Of a stretch of DNA of 30,998 nt, positions 12,256 to 30,947 are shown piece by piece. Each line of letters opens with the position of its first letter. Positions within the stretch are counted from its first letter, which is position 1. Source of the stretch: a virus; the IMG/VR virus record IMGVR_UViG_3300025174_000078, positions 1-30,998 of that record; one strand, 5' to 3'. Below the pieces are notes generated by a model. That model searched no databases. It was not told the DNA's origin and saw only the letters and a program-made list of their open reading frames with translations. The translations under genes and the position numbers were made by a program.

Positions 12256-12491
12256 CTTCAAAAGACATTACCGATAGAGAGGTCCTAACCGAAGCGATCC
12301 GTCAGACAGAAGCCGATAGTGTCCTTGTCGGTTGGGTAATAATTGCCGAGTTTATCGATGAGGAGGGTAATCGTACTCTTAGAAGGCTTGACTCCAACGC
12401 GAGCGGCGAAGGCTTGGTAGACTGGATACGCTCGGGTTATCTATATGACGCTCTCTTTAGTGGCGGATGGGAAAGCGAAGACGATGAGTGA
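12252..12491 (+). CDS. Hypothetical phage protein, 79 aa
   Basis: Starts at ATG 12252 in the ATGA overlap with the kinase stop. It contains VLVGWVIIAEFIDEEGNRTL, then RRLDSNASGEGLVDW and an acidic tail. I recall this GWVxxAE plus DEEGNR combination from many phage hypotheticals of about 80 residues but know no function. The alternating hydrophobic pattern suggests a small beta fold. Confidence 0.65.
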   Translation: MTSKDITDREVLTEAIRQTEADSVLVGWVIIAEFIDEEGNRTLRRLDSNASGEGLVDWIRSGYLYDALFSGGWESEDDE

Positions 12492-12675
12492 AGCAGAAAA
12501 AGTCTTCAAAAAAGCCGTGCAAGATTGCATCAGGTATGGCATTTATCCTGGTCCCCAGACGCTAAATGAGCTGATACATGGGCATCGAGGACGAAACATC
12601 AATGGAAGAGAATGCAGATGGAGACGTGAAATCTGCAAGGAGCTAGGATTTAAGCTGCATGGCTACAACTATTAA
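12484..12675 (+). CDS. Hypothetical basic protein, 63 aa
   Basis: ATG 12484 overlaps the previous gene by 8 bases; an upstream in-frame ATG at 12445 is deep in that gene. The product is basic, with LNELIHGHRGRNINGRE and WRREICKELGFK, which could form a small helix-turn-helix-like DNA-binding unit. Its end overlaps the DNA polymerase gene start. Family not recognised. Confidence 0.6.
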   Translation: MSEAEKVFKKAVQDCIRYGIYPGPQTLNELIHGHRGRNINGRECRWRREICKELGFKLHGYNY

Positions 12676-15031: not shown

Positions 15032-15093
15032 AGGCTCAACTAACTATATTAATCGAGCAGTTGATTGGAGCCAAAGCGAGGATGCTTAAGTGA
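15013..15093 (+). CDS. Possible microprotein, 26 aa
   Basis: In the +1 frame at the end of the polymerase gene, a TTG-initiated 26-codon frame (MGRSKIEAQLTILIEQLIGA and a short basic tail) ends in a GTGA overlap with the next gene. The amphipathic helix and the overlap are suggestive, but there is no clear ribosome binding site. It may also simply be a spacer. Confidence 0.25.
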   Translation: MGRSKIEAQLTILIEQLIGAKARMLK

Positions 15094-15308
15094 AAATTAT
15101 TGATTGCCCTGACTGTGGTAGCGAAGTAGTCGAGTGCGATAATAATGTTTACCTTGATTATCCATCCGTGTCCTATGATGAAGTTAAGGCACCTTGGACG
15201 ATAATGCGGTTTAGCTCAATGGGAATAGCATCTGTAGGCGATCCATCACTGGATGGGAAAGGTCATTCGCTACACGGGCATCAGCCGACTGGGGGTGTTA
15301 TGGCATGA
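15090..15308 (+). CDS. Hypothetical protein with one zinc knuckle, 72 aa
   Basis: Begins with GTG at 15090. The N-terminus IDCPDCGSEVVEC has a CxxC knuckle, and the C-terminus has GKGHSLHGHQP with three histidines, so Cys and His may together bind a metal. The middle (APWTIMRFSSMGIASVGDP) is unremarkable. The pattern is seen in phage hypotheticals, but no function is known. Its end overlaps the next gene's ATG. Confidence 0.6.
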   Translation: MKIIDCPDCGSEVVECDNNVYLDYPSVSYDEVKAPWTIMRFSSMGIASVGDPSLDGKGHSLHGHQPTGGVMA

Positions 15309-15658
15309 AGTATCGCAAGAAGCCGGTAGAAGTTGAAGCATTGCTCTGGGATGGGACTTTGGGGAAAGAAAAGGCGATTAGAGCATTTGCCCAAGAAGCC
15401 GAGATGCAGTCGAGCGAGGCCGTCCTATGGTTCTCTTATGAGACTATTCATATTCGAACTCTAGAGGGTGTTATGAAGGCTAATCTGGGCGACTGGATCA
15501 TCAAGGGTATCAAAGGAGAGCTATATCCTTGCAAGCCAGATATTTTTGAGGCAACTTACGAGCCTGTGATGGAGTACGCTACGAAGATGGTAGAGATTGC
15601 TCCTAATGTTTATCGGCCAGAGCGAGTTCCTATTGAGGAGCTGAACAGGAATGACTAA
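15305..15658 (+). CDS. Conserved phage protein (KYRKKPVEVEA family), 117 aa
   Basis: The opening MKYRKKPVEVEALLW and the block LEGVMKANLGDWIIKGIKGE, then YPCKPDIFEATYEPV, are the hallmark of a very common phage protein family found in diverse tailed phages. Its function is unknown. The match is strong enough to be sure that the gene is real. It begins in an overlap with the zinc-knuckle gene and ends within the next gene. Confidence 0.82.
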   Translation: MKYRKKPVEVEALLWDGTLGKEKAIRAFAQEAEMQSSEAVLWFSYETIHIRTLEGVMKANLGDWIIKGIKGELYPCKPDIFEATYEPVMEYATKMVEIAPNVYRPERVPIEELNRND

Positions 15659-16022
15659 GCCGCTTAATACATCAGGACTACCGCCCGAACTTCATCTGGT
15701 AGGGATGCTAGGCGAGGGATATATCGAGCGCCAGGAGGCTACTGGACAAGCCGAGATGGTACTCAGCGACGTTCTACCCGTGAAGATTGGCTACGACGAG
15801 TCAGAAGAGGATTATGAAGCGCTTGGTATAAAGCTCGGAGCGGTTATCGATGCTGATCCGATCTTTCGCGATGCGACTCTCCCCGAAGGATGGAGTAGGC
15901 ATGGCACTGACCATTCAATGTGGTCCTACATCGCGGACGAGAGTGGCAGGGAACGAATTGCGATCTTTTATAAAGCTGCTTTCTACGATCGTCGAGCTAA
16001 CATGAGGATTGTAAGGGAATGA
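15651..16022 (+). CDS. Conserved phage hypothetical, 123 aa
   Basis: The C-terminal half reads LPEGWSRHGTDHSMWSYI, then GRERIAIFYKAAFYDRRA, a block I recognise from many phage hypothetical proteins of about 100-130 residues. The N-terminal part is variable. No enzyme motif is visible. Function unknown; probably a small alpha/beta protein. Overlaps both neighbours. Confidence 0.7.
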   Translation: MTKPLNTSGLPPELHLVGMLGEGYIERQEATGQAEMVLSDVLPVKIGYDESEEDYEALGIKLGAVIDADPIFRDATLPEGWSRHGTDHSMWSYIADESGRERIAIFYKAAFYDRRANMRIVRE

Positions 16023-16159
16023 ATCGAAACCTATCACTCGGTTGGCCTTGGACGCTGACTTCTATCTACAGTTCGTTTTGTCGGCTCTACCCGCATGAAG
16101 TAGCTACTCAATGGGGTGAAGCAACTTGGACGGCGCGCGATCTGTGGGAGGTTAAATGA
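16019..16159 (+). CDS. Hypothetical microprotein, 46 aa
   Basis: A 46-codon frame starts at ATG 16019 in an ATGA overlap and ends in an overlap with the ATG at 16156. The product is rich in Trp and Tyr (LGWPWTLTSIYSSF, QWGEATWTARDLW). Both junctions have the spacing typical of this operon, and the upstream AAGGGA could serve as a ribosome binding site. Function unknown. Confidence 0.55.
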   Translation: MNRNLSLGWPWTLTSIYSSFCRLYPHEVATQWGEATWTARDLWEVK

Positions 16160-16494
16160 AAGTTCTCATCGTTGATAACTTTCCATCATTTACGATAGAC
16201 ATTTATGTTTATGGCGATCACATGAATCAGGTCGCGGAGTATAATTCAGAGCATCCACATCATTTGGATTGGCTTCCTTTTCAAGAGGGGACTATTCCAG
16301 AGCGACCTACTCTGAGTTTTGGCAAAGAAGTATGGGCAGCAATCATGGAGGAAGCTCTTGGTCCGGCACCGTCCGAAGAAGTCCTCAAAGACACACGCAT
16401 GGTTAGAGATAGACTTCTCGCGCTAATAGAGAAGGATCACGAGCGGATGGAAAAGCAGGCAGACGTAATGTTCAATCACCTTTTAGGGTCTTGA
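16156..16494 (+). CDS. Hypothetical protein, 112 aa
   Basis: Starts at ATG 16156 with GGGAGG upstream. The N-terminus (MKVLIVDNFPSFTIDIYVYG) looks like alternating strands and the C-terminus is a charged helix (VRDRLLALIEKDHERMEKQA). I do not recognise a family. Its stop overlaps TTGACA at 16491, after which a GC-rich non-coding island begins. Confidence 0.6.
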   Translation: MKVLIVDNFPSFTIDIYVYGDHMNQVAEYNSEHPHHLDWLPFQEGTIPERPTLSFGKEVWAAIMEEALGPAPSEEVLKDTRMVRDRLLALIEKDHERMEKQADVMFNHLLGS

Positions 16495-16514
16495 CAAGTT
16501 TGCTACATGAGAAG

Positions 16515-16660
16515 TTTCCCGGCCTTCTCCCGAGGGCCAGGATCGGGGCGACTCCGGGGTCGCGGTGGTGGCTCCGAGGGCCGCAGGGGATTGTTGGTAA
16601 TTGTTGCTTAGCCCTCTCGCGATCCGCCGAGCGCAGCCGGGAGCGCCGGGGGCTAAGAAA
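16515..16660 (+). other. GC-rich multi-hairpin island, possible structured RNA
   Basis: Three stems can be drawn in sequence: GGCCTTC with GAGGGCC around a TCCC loop (16521-16538, one G-T pair), GCGAC with GTCGC (16548-16563), and CTTAGCCC with GGGCTAAG (16607-16657) enclosing a GC-rich inner loop. The island has no convincing gene and differs in composition from the flanks. It lies between a hypothetical gene and the HNH gene. It could be a structured RNA, or a leader or remnant brought in with the HNH gene. No known RNA family is recognised. Confidence 0.45.
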
Positions 16661-16677
16661 GAATCGAGGGATCTACT

Positions 16678-16968
16678 ATAAGTAGCGGGGAATGGTTAAA
16701 GCGGTTTTGGGATAAGGTATTTATCCCTGAGGATGAGAGTGAATGTTGGCTGTGGTGCGGCACGATAACTGACGCTGGATACGGCGTATTTTCAATCAAA
16801 GGGCAAACTTATATGGCGCATCGATTAATGTATATGATCGCATTTGGCATCGAGCAGGGTGAACCCGTGCATCATCGCTGCGAGAGGCATCAATGCGTCA
16901 ATCCATCCCATCTTCAGCAACTCGCCTATAGTGAGCATGGCAAGATACATTGGGAGGGCCGACGATGA
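16678..16968 (+). CDS. HNH homing-type endonuclease (start unresolved)
   Basis: The frame gives WLKRFWDKV, ECWLWCGTITDAGYG, MAHRLMYMIAFG and VHHRCERHQCVNPSHLQQL. Paired histidines, the CVNPSHL block and the FWDKV opening are those of small phage HNH_3-type homing endonucleases. The frame is open from 16657 but contains no ATG, GTG or TTG ahead of the domain. The nearest ATG (16692) is in another frame and meets a stop seven codons on. Either an ATA near 16678 is used or a base has been lost. The stop overlaps the next ATG. Confidence 0.75.
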   Translation: MSSGEWLKRFWDKVFIPEDESECWLWCGTITDAGYGVFSIKGQTYMAHRLMYMIAFGIEQGEPVHHRCERHQCVNPSHLQQLAYSEHGKIHWEGRR

Positions 16969-17456
16969 TGATAGTTCTAGCACTTGATCCTGGTCAATGC
17001 ACAGGCTATGCATTAGCTGCGAAGGATGATGGGACCTTCGATATATGCTATGGGCAAGAGAGCTTCAGTCATCGGGAGCTTTACGATTTTATCCCTCCAA
17101 ATGTCGAGCACGTAATTTGTGAGAGTTTCGAATTCAGGCAAGGAAGGCAATTAGGCGTGGATCTATATCCATGCGAATTGATCGGTGTCGTCAGCTTGTG
17201 GTATCAATATAGCAGCCTAGCGTTGGATCTTACGATGCAGCCCGCATCCATACAAGGGAAGAAAGCCTACTTCTCAGACGCTCGGCTCAAGGATATGGAT
17301 TTATATCAGAAGGGTATAGAGCATGGTCGTAGCGCAGTGAAGCACTTGCTACAATGGTTCTATTATGGGGCGGGGTATCAATATCTCACTACTGATCAAG
17401 ATCCCGAGCTTGTCGAAGAGGATTGGTTTAGGTCGAAGTACCTCGAAGGGGGGTGA
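16965..17456 (+). CDS. RuvC-like Holliday junction resolvase (RNase H fold)
   Basis: A 163-residue protein from ATG 16965, chosen because GGGAGGG lies just upstream and the ATGA overlaps the HNH stop. LALDPGQCTGYAL (5-17) carries the first catalytic Asp (D8), and HVICESFEFRQG (49-60) the second acid (E53). The final helix HGRSAVKHLLQWF (120-132) aligns with the resolvase motif H..DA..HLL, but the usual Asp is S123. Such enzymes resolve recombination branches before packaging. It is the last early gene, next to the convergent boundary. The fold is confident; activity is less so. Confidence 0.75.
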   Translation: MMIVLALDPGQCTGYALAAKDDGTFDICYGQESFSHRELYDFIPPNVEHVICESFEFRQGRQLGVDLYPCELIGVVSLWYQYSSLALDLTMQPASIQGKKAYFSDARLKDMDLYQKGIEHGRSAVKHLLQWFYYGAGYQYLTTDQDPELVEEDWFRSKYLEGG

Positions 17457-17848: not shown

Positions 17849-19351
17849 CTATACCTCCAATAGTGGTGGACGAACTACGAATAAGAACTCACTAGGATAC
17901 CGGCTGTACTTCGATAGCACGACTAGCTGAGGGCCACCATCCCATCCGTGCGAAACCCACTCGGCGGTTTGGTAGTCGCCTGGTTTGATGCACATGATGA
18001 CATGGCGAGACGATTCGAAGTGTGCTAGATCGCCGATGCGGTATGGAGCTGATACTTTAGGGTGATCGTCTTCGTACCAATCTGTATTTCCATAACCTGA
18101 CCACTTCTGCTTAGCAGGATCAGGCACTTCCAAATCGGTCTTGCGCTTGGCATATGCGTAGCCTTGAATCACCGTGCCTGAGCAGTCCGAGGAGAACTTC
18201 GAGTTAGGATCGATGTCTACCTTCACGGGGCGTGCCTGCGAGTAGCTAATGCTCGGCTCGTTAGCGATGATTGCGTAACCCCACTCGGCTAGCGCTTCCT
18301 GCACTTTCTCCTCATTGCGCGAGACTGCGGTGATCTTTGCCTCGTTCTGAATAAGCCTACGTGCGTATGGATCAAACGCATAGAGCTTCTTGCCATCTTT
18401 CCTATACGTTGCCGCACGTAGTTTTTCCCACGCCTTGTTACCATAGGTTCCGTCGTGGGCTAGACCGACAGATTTCTTGAAGTCGGCCATAGCTTCCCAC
18501 AGGAGAAGATCGTAGTCCTGATTGAAATCTCCCCACGGAAGCAGCTTCAGGTGGCCCATTGCGCGCTTTAGTGCTTCTGCTGTTGGCCCTTTTGATCTGT
18601 GTTTGCTGGTTGGTAGCCCATACGGGCCAGTGTACGGAACCTGCTCGGCTGTTAGTGCCATTCCCCCTCCTGTGGTTGGTTTGCACCCTGCAAAGCCTAT
18701 GAACGTTGGTGCCCAATTGGGCAGCGTAAACGACGCCATTACGGGGTCGCCAGTGAACAACGAGTATGGCGCTTGCAGCTTGAAGTCCGACGGCTTCATA
18801 CCGCCGTAAGTACCATAGGTCATATAGACGCAGCGTACTCCGTAATTCCACCACATCTCTCTAATGACTATGGGATCGTAGTTTTGTTGCTGCTCAGCAG
18901 GGAAGATTTGTGGGTGGACGGTTAGCTGCGCGGCTACAGACCAATTAATGTCGGCAAATGGTATAGGCTGCACGCTTAATCCGAAGTCGCGAGGGCCAAT
19001 CTTCTTTACGGTGTAATCGAGTGCGGCTTGATCACCGTCGATTTCCTTCTCTGGATTGATCAGCCCAGGCGATTCCCATTTGTCAGAGGTCGCTACAACC
19101 CTGTCAACGATAGTGGGATCGAATTCGGGGTTGTTTGGATCGCCTTTGGCCGGTCTACCCCAAGGCCCACAGAACAGTCCATATGATAGGGCACGCGGAC
19201 GGACTATCGCTTCCCACTGCTCAGGCTCGAAAGCGTGGACGTTGCAGAGCACACCCTTTATCCAGGGACAATTCTGCTTTAGCCAAGCAATGTCCTCTAC
19301 TCCACCGTTGGGGTTATCTAGGAATAGAAAACATTGGTTGAAAGCTGTCAC
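17849..19351 (-). CDS. Modular endolysin (N-terminal barrel-like domain, PG-binding-like region, NlpC/P60-like domain)
   Basis: A 500-residue cell-wall hydrolase. Residues 370-500 carry SSDCSG (catalytic C390) and YRIGDLAHFESSRHVIMCI (H450), an NlpC/P60-type papain-like domain. Residues about 255-312 (DLLLWEAMADFKKSVGL, DGTYGNKAWEKLR) resemble a peptidoglycan-binding fold. The N-terminal 215 residues are unassigned; strand-helix alternation and VYMTYGTYGG suggest a TIM-barrel glycosidase-like domain. It starts with GTG in a GTGA overlap. The domain order resembles lysins of actinobacterial phages. No signal peptide is seen, consistent with holin-dependent export. Confidence 0.8.
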   Translation of the reverse strand: MTAFNQCFLFLDNPNGGVEDIAWLKQNCPWIKGVLCNVHAFEPEQWEAIVRPRALSYGLFCGPWGRPAKGDPNNPEFDPTIVDRVVATSDKWESPGLINPEKEIDGDQAALDYTVKKIGPRDFGLSVQPIPFADINWSVAAQLTVHPQIFPAEQQQNYDPIVIREMWWNYGVRCVYMTYGTYGGMKPSDFKLQAPYSLFTGDPVMASFTLPNWAPTFIGFAGCKPTTGGGMALTAEQVPYTGPYGLPTSKHRSKGPTAEALKRAMGHLKLLPWGDFNQDYDLLLWEAMADFKKSVGLAHDGTYGNKAWEKLRAATYRKDGKKLYAFDPYARRLIQNEAKITAVSRNEEKVQEALAEWGYAIIANEPSISYSQARPVKVDIDPNSKFSSDCSGTVIQGYAYAKRKTDLEVPDPAKQKWSGYGNTDWYEDDHPKVSAPYRIGDLAHFESSRHVIMCIKPGDYQTAEWVSHGWDGGPQLVVLSKYSRYPSEFLFVVRPPLLEV

Positions 19352-19749
19352 GATTCTAGCCTCTTTGTCACTGCGTCAAACGCCTTGAGAACTTTCTCAT
19401 GTCGCTCCTGTGCTCGGTGCTCATGTGCTTCGTGGCTTGCTATTAGGCGTTCCTCCGTTTCTATGATCGACCTTTGAATATGCGTTATTTCAGCTTTAAC
19501 AGCTAATACTGCTTGCTCACGTCCCTCCGAAACGTCCTTAGATAGTGCAGACAGGTCAGTACGTATTTCCAGTTCACGTACACGTTGCAGTGCTTCCTTC
19601 TCGCGCTGTTGCGTCTCTTTTAACGCTACTTCGCGTTCTTCGGCCATATCCTTCCATAGAGAACCACGCCGTTCTAGTAACTGTGGCAGACCGATGAAGA
19701 CGCCTGCTAGTATGGCTACAACAATCACGATGATTTCAGTGGTATCCAT
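19348..19749 (-). CDS. N-terminally anchored membrane coiled-coil protein, 133 aa
   Basis: Residues 5-24 (EIIVIVVAILAGVFIGLPQL) form one membrane segment and the rest is a long, charged coiled coil (REVALKETQQREKEALQRVR and VKAEITHIQRSIIETEERLI). It sits between the receptor-binding-like gene and the endolysin. It may be an accessory lysis protein or holin-type partner, but no family motif is visible, so this is positional inference. The end overlaps the endolysin GTG. Confidence 0.7.
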   Translation of the reverse strand: MDTTEIIVIVVAILAGVFIGLPQLLERRGSLWKDMAEEREVALKETQQREKEALQRVRELEIRTDLSALSKDVSEGREQAVLAVKAEITHIQRSIIETEERLIASHEAHEHRAQERHEKVLKAFDAVTKRLES

Positions 19750-20451
19750 TTAAGTTGGCCCAGGCGCACCTGTATAAGGACCAAGCCAGATGGCATATAG
19801 CCATTTGCCACCTACATTCCGATTACTCCCTGAGTCTTGGAAGAACCACAAGTATAATTCATCGTCGTATGGTGGGATGATCCAGGGCACCGTAATTCGA
19901 GAAACGGGGTCCCACTGAAGCGAAGAGATACTGGCTTTGTTGAGAGTCAGTGGGCTTTCTCCCCAAAGAGCAGCACCCGATAGCTCTTTATCGATGCGTA
20001 CTGCTATCCCTCCGTCCCACTCGCCTATCCATCTTCCGAGGGCCATTAGTAGCCAGAATCCCGGCTTTATTAGTTTTATGCCATCCGTAATAAGTTGCGC
20101 ATCGGCGGAATTGGACGTTGCGCCGTGTGACATGACGGCTTTGGTATATGTCTCGTCTGGACAAACGGTGGCGGGATCAGTTCCAGAGATGGTTCGCCAG
20201 ATCCAAGCAAGAGGAGAGGGAGGAATATCTCGCCATTCTTGGTTGCTATGGTACTTTATGGCTTCGGTTTCAGAGTCTACAATTATTTGCCCCTCTTGCG
20301 GAACGGTTATATCGCTAGTCCTCGCGCGTTCCATAAGAATTGGGTGCGTTCTGCGTAGGTCATCGATCTCGGCGTTCAATCTCGCTTGATCCGCAAGGAT
20401 CTGCTCAATCAAATCACTCGCAATCGGATCTTGTATTCCTCTAGTACCCAT
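19750..20451 (-). CDS. Receptor-binding-like tail protein, 233 aa
   Basis: I start at ATG 20451, which overlaps the upstream stop (ATGA); the longer in-frame start runs into the upstream gene. An N-terminal helix (ASDLIEQILADQARLNAEID) probably trimerises. VPQEGQIIVDSETEAIKYHS looks like the joining region of phage fibres. The C-terminal 130 residues, with many strands (GFWLLMALGRWIGEWDGGIA), suggest a C1q/TNF-like jelly-roll tip. The downstream position in the tail module fits a host-recognition role. No search was possible. Confidence 0.62.
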   Translation of the reverse strand: MGTRGIQDPIASDLIEQILADQARLNAEIDDLRRTHPILMERARTSDITVPQEGQIIVDSETEAIKYHSNQEWRDIPPSPLAWIWRTISGTDPATVCPDETYTKAVMSHGATSNSADAQLITDGIKLIKPGFWLLMALGRWIGEWDGGIAVRIDKELSGAALWGESPLTLNKASISSLQWDPVSRITVPWIIPPYDDELYLWFFQDSGSNRNVGGKWLYAIWLGPYTGAPGPT

Positions 20452-21659
20452 CAAAACTGGTAAATCTGTTGTAGGCCGAGATCGCAGAGCCAGTTTCCCG
20501 CTACGTCTACATGGAAGTTCTGGCTTATGATATAGAATACCCCAAAGATCATATATACCGGATCTATAAAGTAATCCACATCTATGACGTAACCACATAG
20601 ATTCAAGAATCCCGTTTCCTCATTAATCGGGTCTAGCTTATCGGGATAAATCACCAGGGTTAAGTCCTTTTGTGGAAACTTATCAGCGAAAGCCAGTGTC
20701 CCTTTTTTAATCTGTTCCCGCGTAAGATAAACTTGGCCTCTTGACCCGAGCGTATGGCTAGATCGCCAACGCCTGAATTTCTCTTCGGACTCAATATCTC
20801 TTGACGTAAACCATTTCGGCATGGAGCCGACGCCCCATCCTGTTACATAGGTCGCAATTGGGCCATGATGCCCCCAATCAATATGATGAATTACTGTTTC
20901 ATCGCTTACAAGGAAGTCAGGAACGATATCAAGTCCTGGGTCTTTGTTTTTCATAAAGAAAAAGTCGAGCGACTTATCAGGCCCGCATCTAAAGTTTGGC
21001 ACCCAGGGATCATTTAGTGTAGATATGTTGGCTATGTGTTGTCGCACCGGAGATACATCAAAAGGACCGATTGTGAAAGTCTCTCCGCCTGGTAATCCCT
21101 CCAATTCTCCTGGGACATTTACCCAATTGCTGCCACTGAAGCTAACACTGAAAGCGATCGCATCAGGCCCGTCTTCTAGTGCGGCGATAAGATCGCCAAT
21201 GATAACTTTTTGGTTGACTCCGTTTCCGTTATTCTCCCAATCATATGCTGAGGTTGGGAGTCCGATGAATGCAGCAGTAAGCAGGTCTTTATCAGCTAGC
21301 AACGCTCCCTGAGAGATTTCTCTATCCTGTGGGAAGGGATTGTCAAGCCACGCAGACCAATCTACTCCTGCAAACTGTACTCCAAATTCCTCTGAGTCAA
21401 AGCCGGCGTCCCATAGGAATCCGCCCTGAAGATCGAGAAATGTTTGCGCCCCGTCGTTCGTCCATTTTAGCATGTAATCGTTTCGCTTTGGTGCAACAAT
21501 ACTTCGCGTGAGCGTCGGCTCCGATAGGGGGACAAAGTGACTCATCGTACTTGGTCCTTGCGAACCGAGCTGAAAGCTGTATTCTAATCTTTCAGGCTGC
21601 AATGTCCATACCGGCTGCCCATCATGCAGCGTATACTCGACGTAGATATCGATTGGCAT
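20451..21659 (-). CDS. Minor tail protein (hub / tail-tip like), 402 aa
   Basis: A 402-residue acidic, beta-rich protein following the distal-tail gene. It is Trp/Phe-rich (SAWLDNPFPQDREI, FADKFPQKDLTLVIYPDKLD) without Gly-rich repeats or enzyme motifs. In siphoviruses this slot holds the baseplate hub or tail-associated protein. I infer that role from gene order (tape measure, distal tail, hub) rather than from a recognised domain. Its stop overlaps the next start. Confidence 0.65.
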   Translation of the reverse strand: MPIDIYVEYTLHDGQPVWTLQPERLEYSFQLGSQGPSTMSHFVPLSEPTLTRSIVAPKRNDYMLKWTNDGAQTFLDLQGGFLWDAGFDSEEFGVQFAGVDWSAWLDNPFPQDREISQGALLADKDLLTAAFIGLPTSAYDWENNGNGVNQKVIIGDLIAALEDGPDAIAFSVSFSGSNWVNVPGELEGLPGGETFTIGPFDVSPVRQHIANISTLNDPWVPNFRCGPDKSLDFFFMKNKDPGLDIVPDFLVSDETVIHHIDWGHHGPIATYVTGWGVGSMPKWFTSRDIESEEKFRRWRSSHTLGSRGQVYLTREQIKKGTLAFADKFPQKDLTLVIYPDKLDPINEETGFLNLCGYVIDVDYFIDPVYMIFGVFYIISQNFHVDVAGNWLCDLGLQQIYQF

Positions 21660-22124
21660 CTAGATGTAAACTACAGAGTCGTCGGAGACTTTGCGCCAAT
21701 ACCCAAAGGGACATTCCCAATTGAACATAAATTCGGAGCGCGTAGGCGAAAGAGCCTCCACAGGAACGGAGACATCTGCAAGAGTACACTCGGCGTAGAG
21801 AGTGTCGGCTGATCCTGAGACTACCATGTCAAATCTAACATGATTGAGTTCGACGGCATCAATATGCGGAAGAAGCACGACCATAAAGGCTTGTCGAATG
21901 GTCCAATAGTTCTGAGCCGGATCAGCCATCATGCTGCCTTCCATCTCAATCGTCATTGTATCGACCTGCTTGAGAACTTTATGGCGGCCCGGCTTCCGCA
22001 TCTTTGGCTCCGCATCACCTTTCAATTCGTAGTCCCAGGCAAAGCGTCGCAGAGGATACGTCAGATCGTTCAGGGTTACGGTTACAAGCGTATCGAGATT
22101 CTTAGCAACTAAGCTTGTAATCAT
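21660..22124 (-). CDS. Distal-tail-like protein, 154 aa
   Basis: The 154-residue product has a beta-rich start (LDTLVTVTLNDLTYPLRRFA) and a Trp/Phe-rich end (SEFMFNWECPFGYWRKV). It directly follows the tape measure gene with an ATGA overlap, the usual slot for a distal tail protein that joins tube and tip. The size is somewhat small for that family. Function is inferred from position and composition. Confidence 0.6.
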   Translation of the reverse strand: MITSLVAKNLDTLVTVTLNDLTYPLRRFAWDYELKGDAEPKMRKPGRHKVLKQVDTMTIEMEGSMMADPAQNYWTIRQAFMVVLLPHIDAVELNHVRFDMVVSGSADTLYAECTLADVSVPVEALSPTRSEFMFNWECPFGYWRKVSDDSVVYI

Positions 22125-25100
22125 CGTCTCTGACCTTTGTAGCCATGCTTGGTCTTCTTTCTAAACTGATGCTTGTTTAGAGCGCGGTAAACAGCAGCAG
22201 GCGTTGCCCCATCTGCCTTTACTGTTACGGTGTCACCTTGGTATGTAATCGTGATGTTCTCGCGGCCTGCCTCTCTACCACGTCGTAGTTGCTGCCGAAT
22301 GCTGCGAAGTTCCCGTTCTCGCGCAAGGTGAGCCTCAAGGCGCTTCTCCCTTTTGAAGAGAGCTTGCAGTCGCGCTTGTTGCTTCTCAGTAGGTGCCATT
22401 CCTGCGAAGGTCTCCTGGATCATTTGAGCCTTAAGATCGTTAAGCTGTTTCCTAGTCCTTTCAAGCTCTTGCCGTGTAGTAGGAATGTTCATCTGCGCAA
22501 TGGTCGGAACGGGTGGAGGTTTGATTCCCTTGGCTGCTACCGTAGCGGCAGCTTCGGCCGCCTTGGATTCTGCAAGTTCTTTCATGGCTTGCTGCATTGC
22601 TATCTGGACTTCCTTTGTCATCTGTGACTTTAGCACATCACCAAAGGTGTTAATCACATACTGTCTAAAGCCAGCCCTAAGCTTTGCCTGTGCGGGATCA
22701 GAGGCAATACCATTGATAAGCTGCCATGCGATATTCTTGCCGTGTTTCTCCCATTCCTTAAGCTGCCTGTCCATATCAGCTTTTGTAGCTTGACGAATAA
22801 GCTTCTGGCCGGTTTTGAAATCTTGAACGTACTTCTTAAACTGCTTGGGGCTCGCGCCAAGTAGACCCTCAATGAGCGGGATAGCTTCTGGGCCTAGCGC
22901 TCGAATCTGGTCGATCATCTCTAGCGGAGCACCACGAGCCAGTAGCTTATCAAGATCGCTACGCCAGCGTTTGAAATACTCAAGCTGCTGATCCATATCT
23001 CTTCGGAGCAGCTCAAACGGAACTGGAATTTGTATCCCGAACTGGCGCAGTAGATCATTTATCTGACGGAATACGTCTCCGAAGACGCCCTCCATCGCTG
23101 GACCACCGAAGATCGTACCTAGTGCCTGTTCATTCTCTTGCTTAAATCTATCGTATATCTGCGTGAGATTGTCAACCGCACTGCCGATCTTCTGCTGCAT
23201 GTTCTCGTATGCTTGAGCGATTTCTTGTGCCCGCCTCTTAGTTAGCGATGCGGCATCCGTAAGCCCATTCGCATCAGGATTAAGCGCATTGAGGAAATCC
23301 TCTTGACGCTTGAGGAAATCCTCGCTGACAAGACCTCTAAATATCTTGTTGTATTCCTTAACGAGATCAGAGGCTTGCTCTTTACCTTTTGTTTTGCGCC
23401 CTCTTTCAAAGCTATCCATTGCTTTGTCGAAAGCCTCTCCAAAAGTCTCTCCGAAATCCTTTCCGCCTTCAGCCATCAACTTCTTGCCTCGACCAATAAT
23501 GAGATCGGCGGGCTGAATAACCTTTGCGATGGTGTCTCCAATACCCGGAATGAGTGACGCTAGAGAGGATAGGAACGAGAGGAATGGAGTGAAAGTTTTA
23601 AGTATGTAACCAACGCCTACAAGAGCAAGACCAGGCAGCTCTTTAAGCATCAGTTGCTTCCATGTTTCTTTAAGAGCAGCGCGTAGAGCTATGAAGAAAG
23701 CACGGAATCGATCCCAATGCCTGATAATGAGTTCAACGGCAATTCCAGCGGCGACTGCAAGAGCGCCCCATCCCGTCGCGATCAGCGCTGTTCTCCACGC
23801 TGCTTTAACTGCGCCCGCCGCTATCACATTCGTAGTAACAATTGCTTGCGTTGCTACTCGCGTTGCTACGACGTTAGATGCTTGGTTTGCAAGGAAAGCG
23901 CGATTTGCAAATTGCCATGCGAGCGCTGACTCGGTTGCAGCCGTAACATTGGCGGCTGTTATCGAAACGCCTCCTGTAATGCTTGCTGCTATTGCGGCAG
24001 CAACAGACTGCAAAACTTTCGTTTTCCATATGAGCCAGGCGGTTGTCATTACAACTACAGCCGTCTTGAGATCATATACCTCAGCAACTAGAATACCAAG
24101 TCCGAGCAACGCAAGACTTCCTATGGCTATACGCAACGCCAAGAATCTCTTAGTTGCGCCTTCAGTTGCGAGCGACATCAGAACCATATTAGCTCTGAGC
24201 GCATAGAGCGATCCGACGACATTCAGCATCGTGCCACCGAGGAGAGCCAAGATTCCAACAAACGTCGCGATTTGGATGATGGAGCGGCGTACTGTCGGAT
24301 TCAGATCCTTGAACCAACGGATGAAACTCTCGACTCTTTTGCCAAGTGCAAGAAATACTGGCAATGCTTCTCGGCCGATAACGATAACAAGCGTCTGCAT
24401 CTGTCTCAAGAAGATTTGCCACTGTACTCCAGGGTCGAGCCGTCTCGCTTGGAACGCCAAGTTGAACTCGCCCTGATTCTTAGTAACGTTACTGAGGATG
24501 TTATCGTACAAATCCATAGACGTTGCAAGATTGGCAATTGCTCTACGCGCCTGGATAGTCCCTTGGACGCCAACCTTGGTCTGTTCGCTCGCCTTGGTAA
24601 TTTGGATGAGAGCTTCAATCGCAGATTGCTGGCCCGTAGCAAGTCCAGGAAATCCCTTTATTAGCCTGTCCATGACTACGTTGAGTGGGAGCAAGCGGTG
24701 ATATGCGTCGGTAATAGTGACTCCCCATCGTTTGAATCCTTCTTGAACGACGGGGAGGCGGAACATCTCGATTGCACGGGCCAAGCCCATAGCGGAGTTC
24801 TCTGCACTCCCCGTGAGAATGGAAAGGGCAGCGAGTGCGGCACCAACATCACTAAACTCAAGTCCAGTCGTCTTAGCAATAGGCGCTATAAATTTCATCG
24901 CCGCGCCAAGATCGTCGAGATGCATCTTTCCAAAACGAACGACTGTGAACATCTCGTCAAGCAATTTACTAGTATTTCGCAATTGTGGATCGAAGTTGTT
25001 GAGGACAATAATCATCGCATCCGTGGCTTCTTCAAGTTCAACTCCACCGGCTACGGCGGCTTTGTTGGCTGTTTCGAGAAGCTCGAAGCCCTTAGCAGTA

Positions 25101-26464
25101 TTAACGACACCGCCACGGACAATGTTCATCGAAGAGAAGATTTCATAGGCTGCTTCGGACATTTCTGTCGCGCTTGCAGGAAACTCCATACCCAAGTCAA
25201 TGATTCTGTCTTGGAGTTCTTTAGCTCGCTCCGCAGTTTGCGTAATGGGGGCACCAATGTCACGCATCTGCGTAGCAGCAAGTGAAACTCTCTCGCTAAA
25301 GTTAGCGAACGATCCAGCAGCTAACCCGAAGGCAGCAGTCATAAGGAGCCCGGTGAATTGCGCAGTCCTACCGAGATGTGCGACCTGCCTACCAGTATGC
25401 TCCATCGCTTGTGCTGCATCGGCTATCTCAGCAGTCGAGATGATACGAGGCATCACAGCAAGCTCTGCCCTGGTAGCAGCAATTTCTTTCTGTTGGCGTA
25501 CTAGCGAAGCTTCCTGTGCTCTTAGTGCAACCGTTTCCTGCTCTAGTAGGGTGAGACGCTTTTGCTCCTCAATCGTAAGCGTCTTCTCTTGCGCAAGCAG
25601 AACATCGCGTTGACCCGCGATTGCGGCTAGTCTCGCTTGGATATTTGCATACTCACTTTGTTGGACAAATAGCTGCTCATTAAGTGCCGCAACTGCATCG
25701 GCTTGCTTAGCTACTAGCGCGACTTGTAGCTGCTCTTGCTTTGTCAATGTCGCTGCCTGGGTATTTACCTTTGCAAGCTCGGCTGGCAGCCTTGCCATCT
25801 GAGAATTCAGCCTAGTCGCCGCTTGTTGCGTAGCAATCATTCGCCTAGCCCACATCTCTTGATGCTTAGTGAGATCAGCGTAATTGCCTTGTAACCCCTG
25901 GGTAATGTGCTCTGTAGTAACGTGGGCTCTATTGAGTGTCTTCTGTAATTGGATTTGTCGGGCAGCGTTTAGATTTAAAGATGAACGTAGACGGAGTTCT
26001 CTTTCGGGGAAGGCTGCTCTCGCACGAGCTATATCGAGTGCTCTGCCTTCTAGCCGCGACTGAGCAACAGTCGTTCTAAGAGCACGAGTAGGATCTGCAA
26101 TCGCGCGCTCTGTAGCTGCGATCTGTGCTCGTTTACGAGAGAGATCAGTAAGTAGTTGGTTCTCTTTTCTTACAAGAGCACCCCTCTGCTCATAGATTTG
26201 AAGGCCGCGCGCTGATAGTCTTGCTTCCTGAATTAAGCCTTGAATACGACCTGTACCTACCGTCATGCGGTCTATGCGTTGCGCTATACGTGCTGCCCGA
26301 AGCTGCTGCCCCTCCAAGCGGCTTTGCAGCATTTGCTGCCGTTTATTGGCAGCTTCAGCAGCACTAGAAAGTTGCGCGATGTCGCGACGTAAACGCGCGA
26401 TATTGGTCGTGCCGTAGCTCTGGATGGAGAGGATGAGCCTTAGTTCGCGACCACCGAACGCCAT
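22121..26464 (-). CDS. Tail tape measure protein, 1447 aa (TP901 type)
   Basis: The largest gene in the window. Residues about 20-350 form long coiled coils (AQLSSAAEAANKRQQMLQSR and similar). A TP901-type core follows: FSERVSLAATQMRDIG, then EMSEAAYEIFSSMNIV, GVELEEATDAMIIVLNNF and LEFSDVGAALAALSILTG. Hydrophobic helices in the middle (ILALLGGTMLNVVGSLYAL and others) suit a channel or membrane insertion role. The C-terminus is basic. At roughly 0.15 nm per residue the tail would be near 215 nm, an estimate from the known length rule. The ATG lies three bases from the end of the frameshifted chaperone frame. Confidence 0.93.
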   Translation of the reverse strand: MAFGGRELRLILSIQSYGTTNIARLRRDIAQLSSAAEAANKRQQMLQSRLEGQQLRAARIAQRIDRMTVGTGRIQGLIQEARLSARGLQIYEQRGALVRKENQLLTDLSRKRAQIAATERAIADPTRALRTTVAQSRLEGRALDIARARAAFPERELRLRSSLNLNAARQIQLQKTLNRAHVTTEHITQGLQGNYADLTKHQEMWARRMIATQQAATRLNSQMARLPAELAKVNTQAATLTKQEQLQVALVAKQADAVAALNEQLFVQQSEYANIQARLAAIAGQRDVLLAQEKTLTIEEQKRLTLLEQETVALRAQEASLVRQQKEIAATRAELAVMPRIISTAEIADAAQAMEHTGRQVAHLGRTAQFTGLLMTAAFGLAAGSFANFSERVSLAATQMRDIGAPITQTAERAKELQDRIIDLGMEFPASATEMSEAAYEIFSSMNIVRGGVVNTAKGFELLETANKAAVAGGVELEEATDAMIIVLNNFDPQLRNTSKLLDEMFTVVRFGKMHLDDLGAAMKFIAPIAKTTGLEFSDVGAALAALSILTGSAENSAMGLARAIEMFRLPVVQEGFKRWGVTITDAYHRLLPLNVVMDRLIKGFPGLATGQQSAIEALIQITKASEQTKVGVQGTIQARRAIANLATSMDLYDNILSNVTKNQGEFNLAFQARRLDPGVQWQIFLRQMQTLVIVIGREALPVFLALGKRVESFIRWFKDLNPTVRRSIIQIATFVGILALLGGTMLNVVGSLYALRANMVLMSLATEGATKRFLALRIAIGSLALLGLGILVAEVYDLKTAVVVMTTAWLIWKTKVLQSVAAAIAASITGGVSITAANVTAATESALAWQFANRAFLANQASNVVATRVATQAIVTTNVIAAGAVKAAWRTALIATGWGALAVAAGIAVELIIRHWDRFRAFFIALRAALKETWKQLMLKELPGLALVGVGYILKTFTPFLSFLSSLASLIPGIGDTIAKVIQPADLIIGRGKKLMAEGGKDFGETFGEAFDKAMDSFERGRKTKGKEQASDLVKEYNKIFRGLVSEDFLKRQEDFLNALNPDANGLTDAASLTKRRAQEIAQAYENMQQKIGSAVDNLTQIYDRFKQENEQALGTIFGGPAMEGVFGDVFRQINDLLRQFGIQIPVPFELLRRDMDQQLEYFKRWRSDLDKLLARGAPLEMIDQIRALGPEAIPLIEGLLGASPKQFKKYVQDFKTGQKLIRQATKADMDRQLKEWEKHGKNIAWQLINGIASDPAQAKLRAGFRQYVINTFGDVLKSQMTKEVQIAMQQAMKELAESKAAEAAATVAAKGIKPPPVPTIAQMNIPTTRQELERTRKQLNDLKAQMIQETFAGMAPTEKQQARLQALFKREKRLEAHLARERELRSIRQQLRRGREAGRENITITYQGDTVTVKADGATPAAVYRALNKHQFRKKTKHGYKGQRR

Positions 26465-26466
26465 TA

Positions 26467-27128
26467 CTACATTTTCTCCATCCTGCGAGTAAGCCTTATA
26501 TCAGCTTCTTCCTTACTCGCACGCGCCGTATCAGGCTGTGAGCTTGCAGCCAACACTGCTTCCATTCGGAATAGAGTTCCTGGGGGTTGGTCGAACAGAC
26601 CGCCCTCATATGGCAGGGCATTTAATGCTTCTGCCACGCGAGTAATCCTTATCCAACGACGTACTTCGGCAACTAATTCTCCTCCAAACCACTCGATTGC
26701 GGTGCGCTCTCGTCCGGCGATGAGGAGGAGGCAGCATTCGTAAAACCCTCGGGTTCCTCCTCTTCCTGATTTAGCTCATCGATAAGCGCTTCGACTTCAG
26801 CGCCGAGCTTAGGATCGAGTGACTTGAAAGTAAGCTCGATTCCTCTTTGCGAGAAGTCAAGCAGAACACCATTTTCATCAGTGATATTATGCTCAACGAT
26901 GCAGCGTGGGAATGAGAAGTAATTAGACCATTTGTTAGCGATCTGCACTGCCATCTTTGCATCAGCGTTGCGACCACCCTGCCCACGCTCCATGAGTACT
27001 TTAGTAGCCCCATCTCTACGCTCAAGCATCTCATCGTAAGAAAGCTGGCGCAGAATAACATAACCGTCAGGCGGACAACGCTTTAGTTCCCGCCTGACGG
27101 TTTCCATCTTGCGAGTGCCAACCGGCAT
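26467..27128 (-). CDS. Tail assembly chaperone G-T fusion made by -1 frameshift
   Basis: The zero frame starts at ATG 27128 and reads to G128-F129; a -1 slip at GGGTTTT (26748-26742) then continues as YECCLLLIAGRERTAIEWFG and ends at TAG 26469-26467. The -1 frame gives a protein-like 91-residue extension (ELVAEVRRWIRI, EALNALPYEGG, QPPGTLFRM) that fills the otherwise empty gap up to the tape measure ATG. The product is 220 residues. In lambda-like phages the G and G-T proteins bind the tape measure and recruit tail tube subunits. The extension is not explained by the zero-frame stop. Confidence 0.85.
26673..27128 (-). CDS. Tail assembly chaperone G (zero-frame product, 151 aa)
   Basis: The zero-frame product is 151 residues with an acidic low-complexity end (QEEEEPEGF, then SSSSPDESAPQSSG). 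It contains LSYDEMLERRDGATKVLMER and FSFPRCIVEHN. It starts with GGAGAGGA upstream of the ATG and lies between the Ig-like tail gene and the tape measure. Size, position and the slippery site identify it as the G-type chaperone that coats the tape measure during assembly. It is made in excess of the fusion. Confidence 0.85.
   Translation of the reverse strand: MPVGTRKMETVRRELKRCPPDGYVILRQLSYDEMLERRDGATKVLMERGQGGRNADAKMAVQIANKWSNYFSFPRCIVEHNITDENGVLLDFSQRGIELTFKSLDPKLGAEVEALIDELNQEEEEPEGFTNAASSSSPDESAPQSSGLEEN
26742..26748 (-). promoter_or_regulatory. Programmed -1 frameshift site GGGTTTT
   Basis: On the - strand the codons are GAG GGT TTT, so G GGT TTT is a perfect X XXY YYZ heptamer in the right phase. 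An AGGAGG (26761-26756) lies 7 bases upstream, the kind of internal ribosome-binding-site element that stimulates -1 slipping in dnaX. After the slip the frame is open for 91 codons. No single strong downstream hairpin stands out. Confidence 0.85.
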
Positions 27129-27154
27129 GTTCCTCTCCTTCTATTGTACTAGCT

Positions 27155-27808
27155 TTATGCGACTCTAAAAACCTTGACTTTCTTGCTCGCTAAGTTCGTG
27201 CCGTCATCCGCTTTGATAGTATACGTCCCCTCCTTAGTGGGTGTCCAGTTCATCTGCTTATAGCCCGTAGGATCTCCTGAACCACCAGCCAGGTTCGCAG
27301 CACCCCATGAAAGCGCTGTAGACGCTTCCGTAGTCGCGATGGAGTTCCCGCCTGTCCCTGCTACTCTAGCAACCACCGCGAGAGTAGTAGCGGTCTTTGC
27401 GCCAGCGATTACATCAGCGTGAGCGACAGTACCAGTCCCATAGGTAGTTCCCGCACCGGCTGCGCCATTGATCGCTGCCTTCAAGTTATCGAAGCTTGCC
27501 GACGCACTTGCGCCAATGAAAATCTCATTAGCAGCACCAGTAAGTGTCGTCTTGAAGGTGTACGTTCGCGAGCCAATCGTCACTGTATCGTTGTTTGCTG
27601 GATTAGCTGTATTGGTCAGAGTACCATCCGCATGATCGTTGATGTCGTCATTTGAGATCAGTCCGCCAGCGTCACTAGTAACTTCGGCTGCGAATCCCTC
27701 GGAGTCGATCTTGACTGCCGTTGCCGTAGAAGCAGCAAATCCTTCACCAAGAAGGGCGATGGAATCCCCAACCTTGGCTGGATTGGGTGTAGCTACAAGA
27801 GATGCCAT
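27155..27808 (-). CDS. Ig-like tail protein with an inserted domain, 217 aa
   Basis: Residues 1-48 (LVATPNPAKVGDSIALLGEG) and 180-217 (NWTPTKEGTYTIKADDG, ASKKVKVFRVA) look like the two halves of one Ig-like beta sandwich. Residues about 50-178, rich in Ala, Gly and Thr (DTVTIGSRTYTFKTTLTG, SFDNLKAAINGAAG), form a separate beta-rich insert. Ig-like domains decorate many phage tail tubes and aid host-surface attachment. It lies between the tail tube and chaperone genes. Whether it is a separate decoration protein or a tube component is not known. Confidence 0.7.
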   Translation of the reverse strand: MASLVATPNPAKVGDSIALLGEGFAASTATAVKIDSEGFAAEVTSDAGGLISNDDINDHADGTLTNTANPANNDTVTIGSRTYTFKTTLTGAANEIFIGASASASFDNLKAAINGAAGAGTTYGTGTVAHADVIAGAKTATTLAVVARVAGTGGNSIATTEASTALSWGAANLAGGSGDPTGYKQMNWTPTKEGTYTIKADDGTNLASKKVKVFRVA

Positions 27809-27820
27809 ATACTCTCCTCT

Positions 27821-28804
27821 TTATGTGATATCGGTCGCTGTCTTGACCTCGATCTTATAGCCATCTCCTCCGGCAATGCCAATACCGCGCATCGTTACAC
27901 CGGCCATAATGAGATCGCCAAGACCTGAAAGGCCAAGATCGTAGGTTTCATACACTCCCCGGAAGATTTGCAATTGAACCGCCTCGGTAGATGCGGCATA
28001 TGTCGCACCTGGGTAGCTTTCAAGTTTGACTGCCTTCTGGGTCGTTGCGACGAAGATATTGTACTCGGTTTTATCAATGAAATCCAGCTCTGTCGTGAGC
28101 GTGATCTCAGTTTCTCCGAAGCTGACGTAGCTTGCACTTCGGTCACGAACAATGCGGTTTTGCGCCTCGGCGTTGAAATTAGCTTCGAACTCGAATCCAT
28201 TAAAGTCACTGACAACAGCATACGTCGGGGTGAGGCTGGAAGCGCCTGTACTAATCGCCGTAGCGTCTGCGCCAAAGAGAGTCGGAGCAGACCACGTAGG
28301 AGTATCGCCAGAGGCGGTATTGTCTTTCTCACCGACGAGCGTGCCACCTAGCTTGAGAATGCCGCCGTCCACAAAGAGTCGGAGAGACCCTAGCGTGCAG
28401 CCTGAATAACCGAACTCGACATTATTACGCTCGATTGTAATGGATGCGGTTCTCTGTACCGCTCCTGAAGCTGCCGTCGAAGTAGCACCAGCATCCGAGG
28501 GTACAAACGTATAGACAAAGGGACCTGCCCCTGTCTTAGTAATCGTATGTCGAGTGCAGTACAACAGATATGGCAAGAACTTGGATTCTATTTCCAACTC
28601 GAAATCGCCCTCGATGTGATAGTAACCCTGCTTCACATCGGAGACAATCGTATCTTCCCTAATCTGTGGAGAATAGTAACGATCCTCCACATATCGGAAA
28701 GACTCCGAAATAATCGGAATATAAACAGTTGGCGAGACGTAAGTGCCCTTTACTGATTCAAGAGCGAGCCCTAGCCAACCACTACCGGACAGACCAGCGG
28801 GCAT
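27821..28804 (-). CDS. Major tail tube protein
   Basis: A 327-residue beta-rich protein. The opening LSGSGWLGLALESVKGTYVS, followed by IPIISESFRYVEDRYYSP and GYYHIEGDFELEIE, is the pattern of siphophage tail tube proteins that begin with a short loop and strand. Later strands include ASITIERNNVEFGYSGC and DFNGFEFEANFNAEAQN. Its place just before the Ig-like and chaperone genes fits the tube. The ATG overlaps the previous stop. Confidence 0.78.
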   Translation of the reverse strand: MPAGLSGSGWLGLALESVKGTYVSPTVYIPIISESFRYVEDRYYSPQIREDTIVSDVKQGYYHIEGDFELEIESKFLPYLLYCTRHTITKTGAGPFVYTFVPSDAGATSTAASGAVQRTASITIERNNVEFGYSGCTLGSLRLFVDGGILKLGGTLVGEKDNTASGDTPTWSAPTLFGADATAISTGASSLTPTYAVVSDFNGFEFEANFNAEAQNRIVRDRSASYVSFGETEITLTTELDFIDKTEYNIFVATTQKAVKLESYPGATYAASTEAVQLQIFRGVYETYDLGLSGLGDLIMAGVTMRGIGIAGGDGYKIEVKTATDIT

Positions 28805-29013
28805 TAATCGTCACCGCCCTTCGCTACAGACCCAACTTCAACGTTGGGGTTGTTCCTGAATGCTTCAGAAAGCTTCATCCCCGAACGAGCTTCAAAGGCT
28901 TCTTCCTCAGCCTTTGAGAAATCAACAGTCTTACCATTGACGAGCATGCCCAGGCCCCTTACATGAAGCTCAGCACCTTCGGGCAACGACTCATCTTTCA
29001 AAGTAACCTTCAT
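28804..29013 (-). CDS. Hypothetical small protein, 69 aa, before the tail tube gene
   Basis: A 69-residue acidic protein with LHVRGLGMLVNGKTVDFSKA, then a helix rich in Glu (EEEAFEARSG), and an acidic end (AKGGDD). I recall similar short proteins next to tail tube genes of actinophages, with unknown function. GGAGG precedes the ATG. Its stop overlaps the tail tube gene start. Confidence 0.6.
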   Translation of the reverse strand: MKVTLKDESLPEGAELHVRGLGMLVNGKTVDFSKAEEEAFEARSGMKLSEAFRNNPNVEVGSVAKGGDD

Positions 29014-29031
29014 ATAGGAGCCTCCAGACTA

Positions 29032-29505
29032 TTAAGAATCAGCATAATTCACTTGCGACTGCCCTAACCACAAGAGACGAGTAGTTACGATTCTTGTTCC
29101 TGCCTCCCTAAGTACAACTCCTGGGATTTCACGAACGACCCTTCCCGAGCCGCCTATGAGACGGTTCTCGCCTGCATCTCCTTCTCTAAGCGCCCGATTG
29201 TTTGGCTGATGGAGAAACCGCACGACTCCCGTAGCCAATTCCATGTCTTCAATATTACGAATAGCTCGGGTAGATTCATAGTTGGCATGGTAGATCCAAA
29301 AGGACGCCTCGAAGGTAAGAAGGAATCGCTGCGTTCCATGATCCTCTCGCATGAGATCACCCATCGAAACTTGTAGCGCAGGATATTCAGGCATGAGGTT
29401 TTCATCTTGCGTCGCGACATATTGGATACCGAGCAATCCTTGGTTTGTCTTGAGAAGTTCAACGAACCTCTTAAGCAGCTCCTCTGGGCGTGAATACATT
29501 GCCAT
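29032..29505 (-). CDS. Tail terminator-like protein, 157 aa
   Basis: A 157-residue protein with LLKRFVELLKTNQGLLGIQY, LLTFEASFWIYHANYESTRA and GVVLREAGTRIVTTRLLW. The mix of an N-terminal helix and central strands matches the size of siphophage tail terminators, which cap the finished tail tube. It sits between the virion morphogenesis-like gene and the tail tube, where terminators normally lie. Function is inferred from position and size. Confidence 0.65.
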   Translation of the reverse strand: MAMYSRPEELLKRFVELLKTNQGLLGIQYVATQDENLMPEYPALQVSMGDLMREDHGTQRFLLTFEASFWIYHANYESTRAIRNIEDMELATGVVRFLHQPNNRALREGDAGENRLIGGSGRVVREIPGVVLREAGTRIVTTRLLWLGQSQVNYADS

Positions 29506-29506
29506 C

Positions 29507-30046
29507 TCATGTAAATGCCGTGAACGTCCCTACTTGAGTGCGAACCTCGCGGCGAAATATACCACCCAATACAAGACCGCCTGCTAACCACTCATCAGCG
29601 CGATTTACGATCTTCTGCTCTGCATCGCTAGATAGTCCAACGAATGACCTTCGCGGGATTCTTTGGCCTCCTGCACCCTCGGGCTGCTCATGGTAGGGCC
29701 AGTAATCGGGAAGTCTCGATGTGTCGAAAAACACCCCCACAGGAGTAGCGATCCAAGCATCCTCCGAGATCGCCCTCTGGTACATCTCTGTCGAAAGTCG
29801 CAGAATTCCGACCTGCTCAGGCGCGGGCTGTGCAAGTTCTTGCCAAGGGTGCCCATCGGGGTCGGTTTCCGTTTCAAACCGCTCAGCCATATCGACTTGA
29901 GCGCGCTGTTTTGCGCCCTCCATAAGCACCTGAGTATTCTCTAGATACCGCTCAAGCTGTACTAGTTGATACTCAATTACGGGGGGGTCTGGATACAGCC
30001 AGTCGAACTCAAGTCCGATTGTTGCCGGAAACGAGACAGGTCGCAA
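29507..30046 (-). CDS. Phage virion morphogenesis / tail completion-like protein
   Basis: A 179-residue protein from the TTG at 30046 (GAGAAGAGA upstream). The block DMAERFETETDPDGHPWQEL, then LRLSTEMYQRAI, PYHEQPEGAG and RIPRRSFVGLS, is the signature of Mu gpG-like virion morphogenesis / HK97 gp10-like head-tail joining proteins. They help connect head and tail during assembly. The start overlaps the small gene at 30009-30182 by 38 bases. Confidence 0.78.
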   Translation of the reverse strand: MRPVSFPATIGLEFDWLYPDPPVIEYQLVQLERYLENTQVLMEGAKQRAQVDMAERFETETDPDGHPWQELAQPAPEQVGILRLSTEMYQRAISEDAWIATPVGVFFDTSRLPDYWPYHEQPEGAGGQRIPRRSFVGLSSDAEQKIVNRADEWLAGGLVLGGIFRREVRTQVGTFTAFT

Positions 30047-30182
30047 TCTCTTCTCTCAATCGTAGGCGCTGCTTCTCGGTCAGATTATGTTTCAAAGCCA
30101 TAACATCGGCTACTTCATACGCGGTTCTACGTAGGTCACGCGCTTTGCCAATAGCCTCAGCTTTGGCCTTGGAGTATGACAT
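30009..30182 (-). CDS. Hypothetical basic protein, 57 aa
   Basis: An open 57-codon frame on the - strand starts at ATG 30182 and ends at TGA 30009. The product is helical and basic (SYSKAKAEAIGKARDLRRTA, LTEKQRLRLREE) with no metal motif. It overlaps the next gene by 38 bases and starts next to the end of the connector gene, filling what would otherwise be a 140-base gap. I do not recognise a family. Confidence 0.5.
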   Translation of the reverse strand: MSYSKAKAEAIGKARDLRRTAYEVADVMALKHNLTEKQRLRLREEIATCLVSGNNRT

Positions 30183-30185
30183 TAA

Positions 30186-30626
30186 CTACCATCTCATGTC
30201 CATGCTAAATTTTGGTTCTGTATTCTTATCGGGGTAAAAGAAAGAACTGTCAAATGCAGTTCCTATTTCTTCGGTTACTTCTGCCAATATCACTTCGCCA
30301 GTGCGGACTTTCTCAAGCATGTCCATAGCGATATCGTATATCCGCTGTGGATAGGTTCGGTCCCAATCTGGTAAGTCTTCGGAAAGTTTCTTTGCATAGT
30401 AGAACGCTGCAATGAGCCGACCCGCGCATGCCCTGATGTACTCAGGGGTCGTATCGGGGTCGGCCCATGCAGTTAGTGTCGTTTGTGAGAAGACGCTTGA
30501 TAGATATCCCTTGATGAGCCGCTCAATATCAGTCTGAAGCAGCAGAATCTCGGGGTTTCCATCAGTAGCCTTGAACTTATCCGGTGGAAGCCAGGTCTTG
30601 ATATCTTCAAGGCTAGCGAGCGCCAC
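30186..30626 (-). CDS. Head-tail connector-like protein, 146 aa
   Basis: The protein begins LASLEDIKTWLPPDKF and continues with helices (LLLQTDIERLIKGYLSS, RACAGRLIAAFYYAKKLSE). This all-alpha layout of about 145 residues is typical of gp6/gp15-like connectors that dock to the portal. It lies between a small head gene and tail completion genes. The GTG start at 30626 directly follows the previous gene's stop. Assignment rests on helical pattern and gene order. Confidence 0.65.
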   Translation of the reverse strand: MALASLEDIKTWLPPDKFKATDGNPEILLLQTDIERLIKGYLSSVFSQTTLTAWADPDTTPEYIRACAGRLIAAFYYAKKLSEDLPDWDRTYPQRIYDIAMDMLEKVRTGEVILAEVTEEIGTAFDSSFFYPDKNTEPKFSMDMRW

Positions 30627-30947
30627 CTACTTTGACTCTCCCTTCGGCAGTTGACTACTGCCCTCCGAGATATGTGCGAGTTCGGAAGCGGCTTCCTCTT
30701 CCTCGACAGCCGACATTTCGGTAGCTTCTCGAAGCTGTTGACGAACGAATGCGACCGCTGATCCAGGGAAGTTCTTTGGGGCGGGAAATTGCTTCGTTCG
30801 AATTGATCCAGCGTCGATTAGTGCCTGCCAATCGGCATCAGAGAGCTTTAGATCAGATTTGCTTACCTGATTCCCGCGCTCTATGTCGATTGGTTTGTCA
30901 GCCGTGCCCGCTCTAATTGGAGACCATGCGTAGTGTGCCACTCTCAT
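30627..30947 (-). CDS. Small head-region protein, 106 aa
   Basis: A 106-residue protein with a folded N-terminal half (HYAWSPIRAGTADKPIDIER, LKLSDADWQALIDAGSI) and an acidic end (VEEEEAASELAHISEGSSQL). Such short proteins often follow the major capsid gene in siphophages, but I do not recognise its family. The ATG at 30947 is preceded by GGAGAGGA. Function is not assigned. Confidence 0.6.
   Translation of the reverse strand: MRVAHYAWSPIRAGTADKPIDIERGNQVSKSDLKLSDADWQALIDAGSIRTKQFPAPKNFPGSAVAFVRQQLREATEMSAVEEEEAASELAHISEGSSQLPKGESK

Follow-up and report, generated by a model that had tools for sequence, protein, structure and literature searches.

In phage lambda, the slippery heptamer at which ribosomes pass from gene G into the -1 frame of gene T is GGGAAAG. 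The two tail assembly chaperones, gpG and gpGT, are produced in a ratio of about 30:1; both bind the tape measure protein, and gpGT also binds the major tail protein through its T part (PMC5009743). Among RNA viruses, GGAUUUU is well established as a -1 site, for example in RNA2 of pea enation mosaic virus (PMC5009743; PMC4737148, where it is termed non-canonical), and most of the tail-chaperone overlaps in the PRFect set are without an XXXYYY motif (PMC10885494). In E. coli dnaX a purine-rich element is found upstream of the slippery site.

We analysed a virus record of 30,998 bases over its full length (the window), in which the tail genes are on the minus strand. Its chaperone locus resembles lambda G/GT in having two overlapping ORFs, the second in the -1 frame and without a start of its own, and in the order tail protein, chaperone, tape measure, with the extension ending beside the tape measure start. 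It differs from lambda in that similarity to any library family is not recognisable in its sequence, that its heptamer is GGGTTTT (GGATTTT in relatives) rather than GGGAAAG, that the extension is shorter (91 aa), and that the short form runs on past the shift site into a 22-residue Ser-rich tail. From comparison of sequences, we put at about 95% the probability that this is a programmed -1 frameshift of the lambda G/GT type, by which one gene would give two tail assembly chaperones. The frameshift is of a known kind and a well-conserved new example; its notable feature is the turnover of the shift site, not the RBS-like element upstream of it.

Gene organization and reading frames

Features of the locus are listed in Table 1. 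Replication genes (primase, DNA polymerase, exonuclease, Sak4-like) are on the plus strand at 1-17456 and structural genes on the minus strand at 17849-30947, the two sets converging near 17.5-17.8 kb. At the chaperone locus the order is tail protein, 217-aa ORF, chaperone ORF and tape measure. In four relatives (L006, L007, L009, L010) the tail protein match stops just 22-49 bases ahead of the chaperone, so that the 217-aa ORF is absent there.

Table 1. Features of the chaperone locus in the window
Feature	Position	Strand	Remarks
Upstream tail protein (phrog_290, minor tail protein)	27821..28804	-	E 1.5e-13; second bait for relatives
217-aa ORF	27155-27808		No PHROG match; between the tail protein and chaperone genes
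Tail assembly chaperone, short form (G-like), 151 aa	26673..27128	-	ORF; zero-frame stop TAG 26675-26673
AGGAGG, RBS-like	26756..26761	-	7 bases 5' of the heptamer; probably only Glu codons
Putative slippery heptamer G GGT TTT	26742..26748	-	Same aligned position in 23 distinct loci
Zero-frame TAG terminating the short form	26673..26675	-	Overlaps TTA (Leu) of the -1 frame
-1 frame extension (T-like), 91 aa	26470..26742	-	Stop TAG 26469-26467; homologous in 23 loci
Tape measure protein, 1447 aa	22121..26464	-	PHROG tape measure families, best E 4e-36; next gene downstream

GGGTTTT occurs once in 27128-26300, and the initial annotation was right that it stands in phase, with GGT TTT as zero-frame codons. 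A slip of one base back turns GGT into GGG, keeps TTT and continues with TAC GAA TGC for 91 residues (YECCLLLIAG...MEKM), giving a fusion of 220 aa in total. The -1 frame is likewise stop-free down to 26467, as had been stated, and AGGAGG lies where it had been placed; the gap between the -1 stop and the tape measure ATG is two bases (TAG-TA-ATG) and not three. By itself the heptamer of the window is weak evidence, since 25% of synonymously randomised overlaps contained an in-phase XXXYYY site; just 2.3% had a -1 frame that was open throughout. The decisive support for the frameshift, which we regard as strong, comes from the homologous -1 extension of the relatives.

The tail that the short form carries past the shift site (26673-26741, TNAASSSSPDESAPQSSGLEEN) is modelled with low confidence. 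A Ser-containing tail follows the shift site in most relatives too.

Conservation of the extension

Relatives were collected from viral contigs using as baits the chaperone, the upstream tail protein, the extension and then an alignment of the extension, which gave a comparison set of 23 distinct loci, the window included, all with a common arrangement. Every one of the 23 has a homologous -1 frame extension after the aligned shift site, with the core W(I/L)R...LP..GG(L/V)..QP kept in nearly all; homologues of the short form are 37-67% identical in 14 loci. Past the zero-frame stop, pN was below pS in 253 of 253 pairs (mean pN 0.44 versus pS 0.78; for the window and L011, 0.27 and 0.74), indicating that the extension is under purifying selection as a protein. 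The initial annotation had held that the -1 frameshift fuses the tail chaperone to real protein, which this conservation strongly supports, and had named stops or random drift in the -1 frames of close relatives as what would refute it; neither was found.

Positions of stop codons bear on where the shift would occur. In seven loci (L006, L008, L011, L025, L027, L031, L063) the heptamer is directly preceded by a stop codon in the -1 frame, so that the shift could take place only at the heptamer or just past it. The zero-frame stop coincides with the Leu or Val of an ELV/DLT motif, or at the homologous place, in 22 of the 23 loci, the exception being L014, where it comes two codons earlier. Where a Leu overlaps the zero-frame stop, its codon is always CTA or TTA; these two account for 22% of the Leu codons in the tape measure gene. 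Because the zero-frame stop is kept and the Leu codons are restricted in this way, both the short form and the fusion are probably under selection.

This is an uncultivated phage family without a counterpart in the phage record collection; cultured phage records, searched both as DNA and as protein, returned nothing.

Turnover of the shift site

At the homologous position, the site takes the forms GGATTTT, GGGTTTT, GGCTTTT, GGTTTTT, AACTTTT, AAATTTT and CCCTTTA/G. The commonest is the non-canonical GGATTTT (13 of 23 loci), and the canonical GGGTTTT of the window is the exception. The tree places the window as a tip inside a GGATTTT group, with L005 and L010 as its nearest rows (support 84/78 and 93/88); given this nesting, GGATTTT is the most likely origin of its GGGTTTT.

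Wherever the A site encodes Phe (21 loci), the codon is TTT and a T precedes it. When the set is pooled, only 31% of Phe codons are TTT, which gives a log10 P of about -15 on the assumption of independence, a figure weakened by the relatedness of the loci. The two loci without an A-site Phe carry CCCTTTA and CCCTTTG, both canonical. The P site encodes different amino acids (D, G, N, T, A, V). As judged from the alignment, the conserved element is thus the T ahead of the A-site TTT codon, while the P-site codon varies. Only the T-TTT part is in phase in AACTTTT (L013), GGCTTTT (L050) and GGTTTTT (L061); since L013 sits among GGATTTT relatives, even loss of the GG is possible.

GGATTTT allows poor re-pairing in the P site (GAT to GGA), so in most relatives slippage would rest mainly on tRNA-Phe at T TTT. 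We consider it possible, though unlikely, that for its -1 shift this family requires no more than an A-site TTT after a P-site codon with a final T, tRNA-Phe slipping on U_UUU without an SD or RNA stimulator, the P site being otherwise free (GAT, GGT, GCT, GTT, AAT, ACT) and canonical heptamers secondary.

The GGATTTT site is unusual but not unprecedented, in light of the RNA-virus GGAUUUU sites and of the PRFect overlaps without XXXYYY. The heptamer of most of the phage relatives is that of pea enation mosaic virus RNA2, but in the RNA viruses the ribosomes are eukaryotic and a large RNA structure lies downstream, of which no conserved counterpart was found in the phage family. Among the PRFect motifs, 'twoonefour' would fit GGATTTT as two-one-four, going by the name alone; those motifs come from isolated phages of SEA-PHAGES, whereas the family here is uncultivated (PMC10885494). 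A literature search on the DNA spelling GGATTTT gave unrelated papers only, and the RNA spelling led to the RNA-virus papers.

Stimulators and alternative explanations

The initial annotation had proposed that the upstream RBS-like element is used in the shift; such an element could act like the Shine-Dalgarno (SD) stimulator of dnaX. SD stimulation of a -1 shift works at a spacing of 10-14 bases. AGGAGG stands closer than this to the heptamer in the window, and strong matches to it do occur in L008, L012, L016, L027 and L029, 10-16 bases ahead of the P-site codon, yet in L010, L013 and L052 the element is weak or absent. We compared the anti-SD pairing of the 36 upstream bases with that after synonymous randomisation, and found it no stronger than chance in the window (P=0.39) or across the family (mean -7.8 versus -7.2 kcal/mol, P=0.15), with the best positions scattered 0-26 bases ahead of the P-site codon and no fixed spacing. 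Unlike a dnaX-type element, then, AGGAGG is unconserved here in strength and spacing. The Glu-rich coding stretch yields GAGGAG anyway, and pairing is no better than in randomised sequence; we therefore do not count the element in the mechanism, and find it improbable that it drives the shift, though it may play a part in this one phage. Nor is RNA structure conspicuous: the fold of the 70 nt downstream is unremarkable (z -1.4 for the window, family mean z -0.5), and a 14-sequence alignment gave no consensus pairs, a result that concerns stems. A helix across the site (GAGGAGG with CCTCCTC) can form in the window, but was set aside, there being no consensus pairs in 14 relatives.

Three other readings dispense with ribosomal slippage. 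The extension could be a separate gene that overlaps the chaperone and uses its own start codon, and the -1 frame does contain a GTG-started ORF of 56 aa (26637..26467). This GTG is inside the conserved domain, and starting there would remove the first 35 residues, which are themselves conserved; moreover, between the upstream stop and the conserved W there is no ATG, GTG or TTG in the -1 frame of any of the 23 loci, so that the extension is not startable alone in the usual way, and we hold such a gene to be very unlikely. The two forms might instead arise from slippage of RNA polymerase on the T run, which is indeed the most conserved element of the site. Transcriptional slippage requires clearly longer A/T runs than the four T present here (three in L025 and L059), and the conservation is phased to codons, i.e. 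to the T before the A-site TTT; polymerase slippage is as remote a prospect as the separate gene. That the open -1 frame reflects chance or sequencing error, the extension never being made, gains something from the frequency of in-phase heptamers in randomised overlaps, but it would leave a conserved and selected extension, with stops at matching places, in 23 distinct loci, and we give it next to no credence. A ribosomal -1 shift at the heptamer remains our preferred reading, and each of the comparisons made here between coding frames supports it.

Protein identity and proposed mechanism

Neither G nor T of the window matches Pfam or PHROG, and G has no match in NCBIfam either; of the relatives of G, one has a match to phrog_4976, a tail assembly chaperone family of PHROG (E 2.5e-4). 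AlphaFold modelled G with a pLDDT of 70.8, and the best viral fold matches of this model include several named phage tail assembly chaperones, although weakly (probability up to 1.0, E 0.004-0.04; best match overall 2.7e-3 and best named chaperone 3.9e-3, all above 0.001). The extension is modelled as five helices with a pLDDT of 86.9. A PDB fold search found nothing significant for either model, and the sequences of solved structures gave no convincing match. Position, architecture and this weak fold similarity are together the basis for calling the gene a tail assembly chaperone.

Under the proposed frameshift, most ribosomes would terminate at the zero-frame TAG and release the 151-aa short form, while a minority would slip one base back at G GGT TTT, tRNA-Gly re-pairing from GGT to GGG and tRNA-Phe from TTT to TTT, and go on to make the 220-aa G-T fusion. 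By analogy with lambda, coating of the tape measure protein would fall to the G part and recruitment of the tail tube protein to the T part, with both chaperone forms departing once the tube is assembled. The sequences show the two frames, how they are conserved, that the extension has no start codon to itself and where the shift would lie; that the shift takes place, how efficient it is and what G and T bind, we infer.

With this locus, a family overlooked by sequence libraries gains a well-supported tail-chaperone frameshift; since those libraries miss the family, automatic annotation would miss the extension. The family also offers, at a single homologous position, a range of naturally occurring shift sites with which the weight of the P-site codon could be tested and frameshift predictors limited to XXXYYYZ improved.

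More distant relatives

More distant loci (L066-L085) also have an LP..GGL.DQP motif in the -1 frame, but there the upstream ORF is a different one. Several of them carry CCCAAAA/C, GGGAAAC or AAAAAAC at or near the zero-frame stop; they probably represent further tail-chaperone frameshifts whose T domain is related. One distant relative, too distant for naming a host, lies within a bacterial genome record (a contig of Bacterium UASB270; L086:8001-8610). By eye, its G-like ORF ends GTA AAA TAA and a T-like LPQPGGLFEQD then follows in the -1 frame; here the A-site AAA is preceded by A, again a four-base run.
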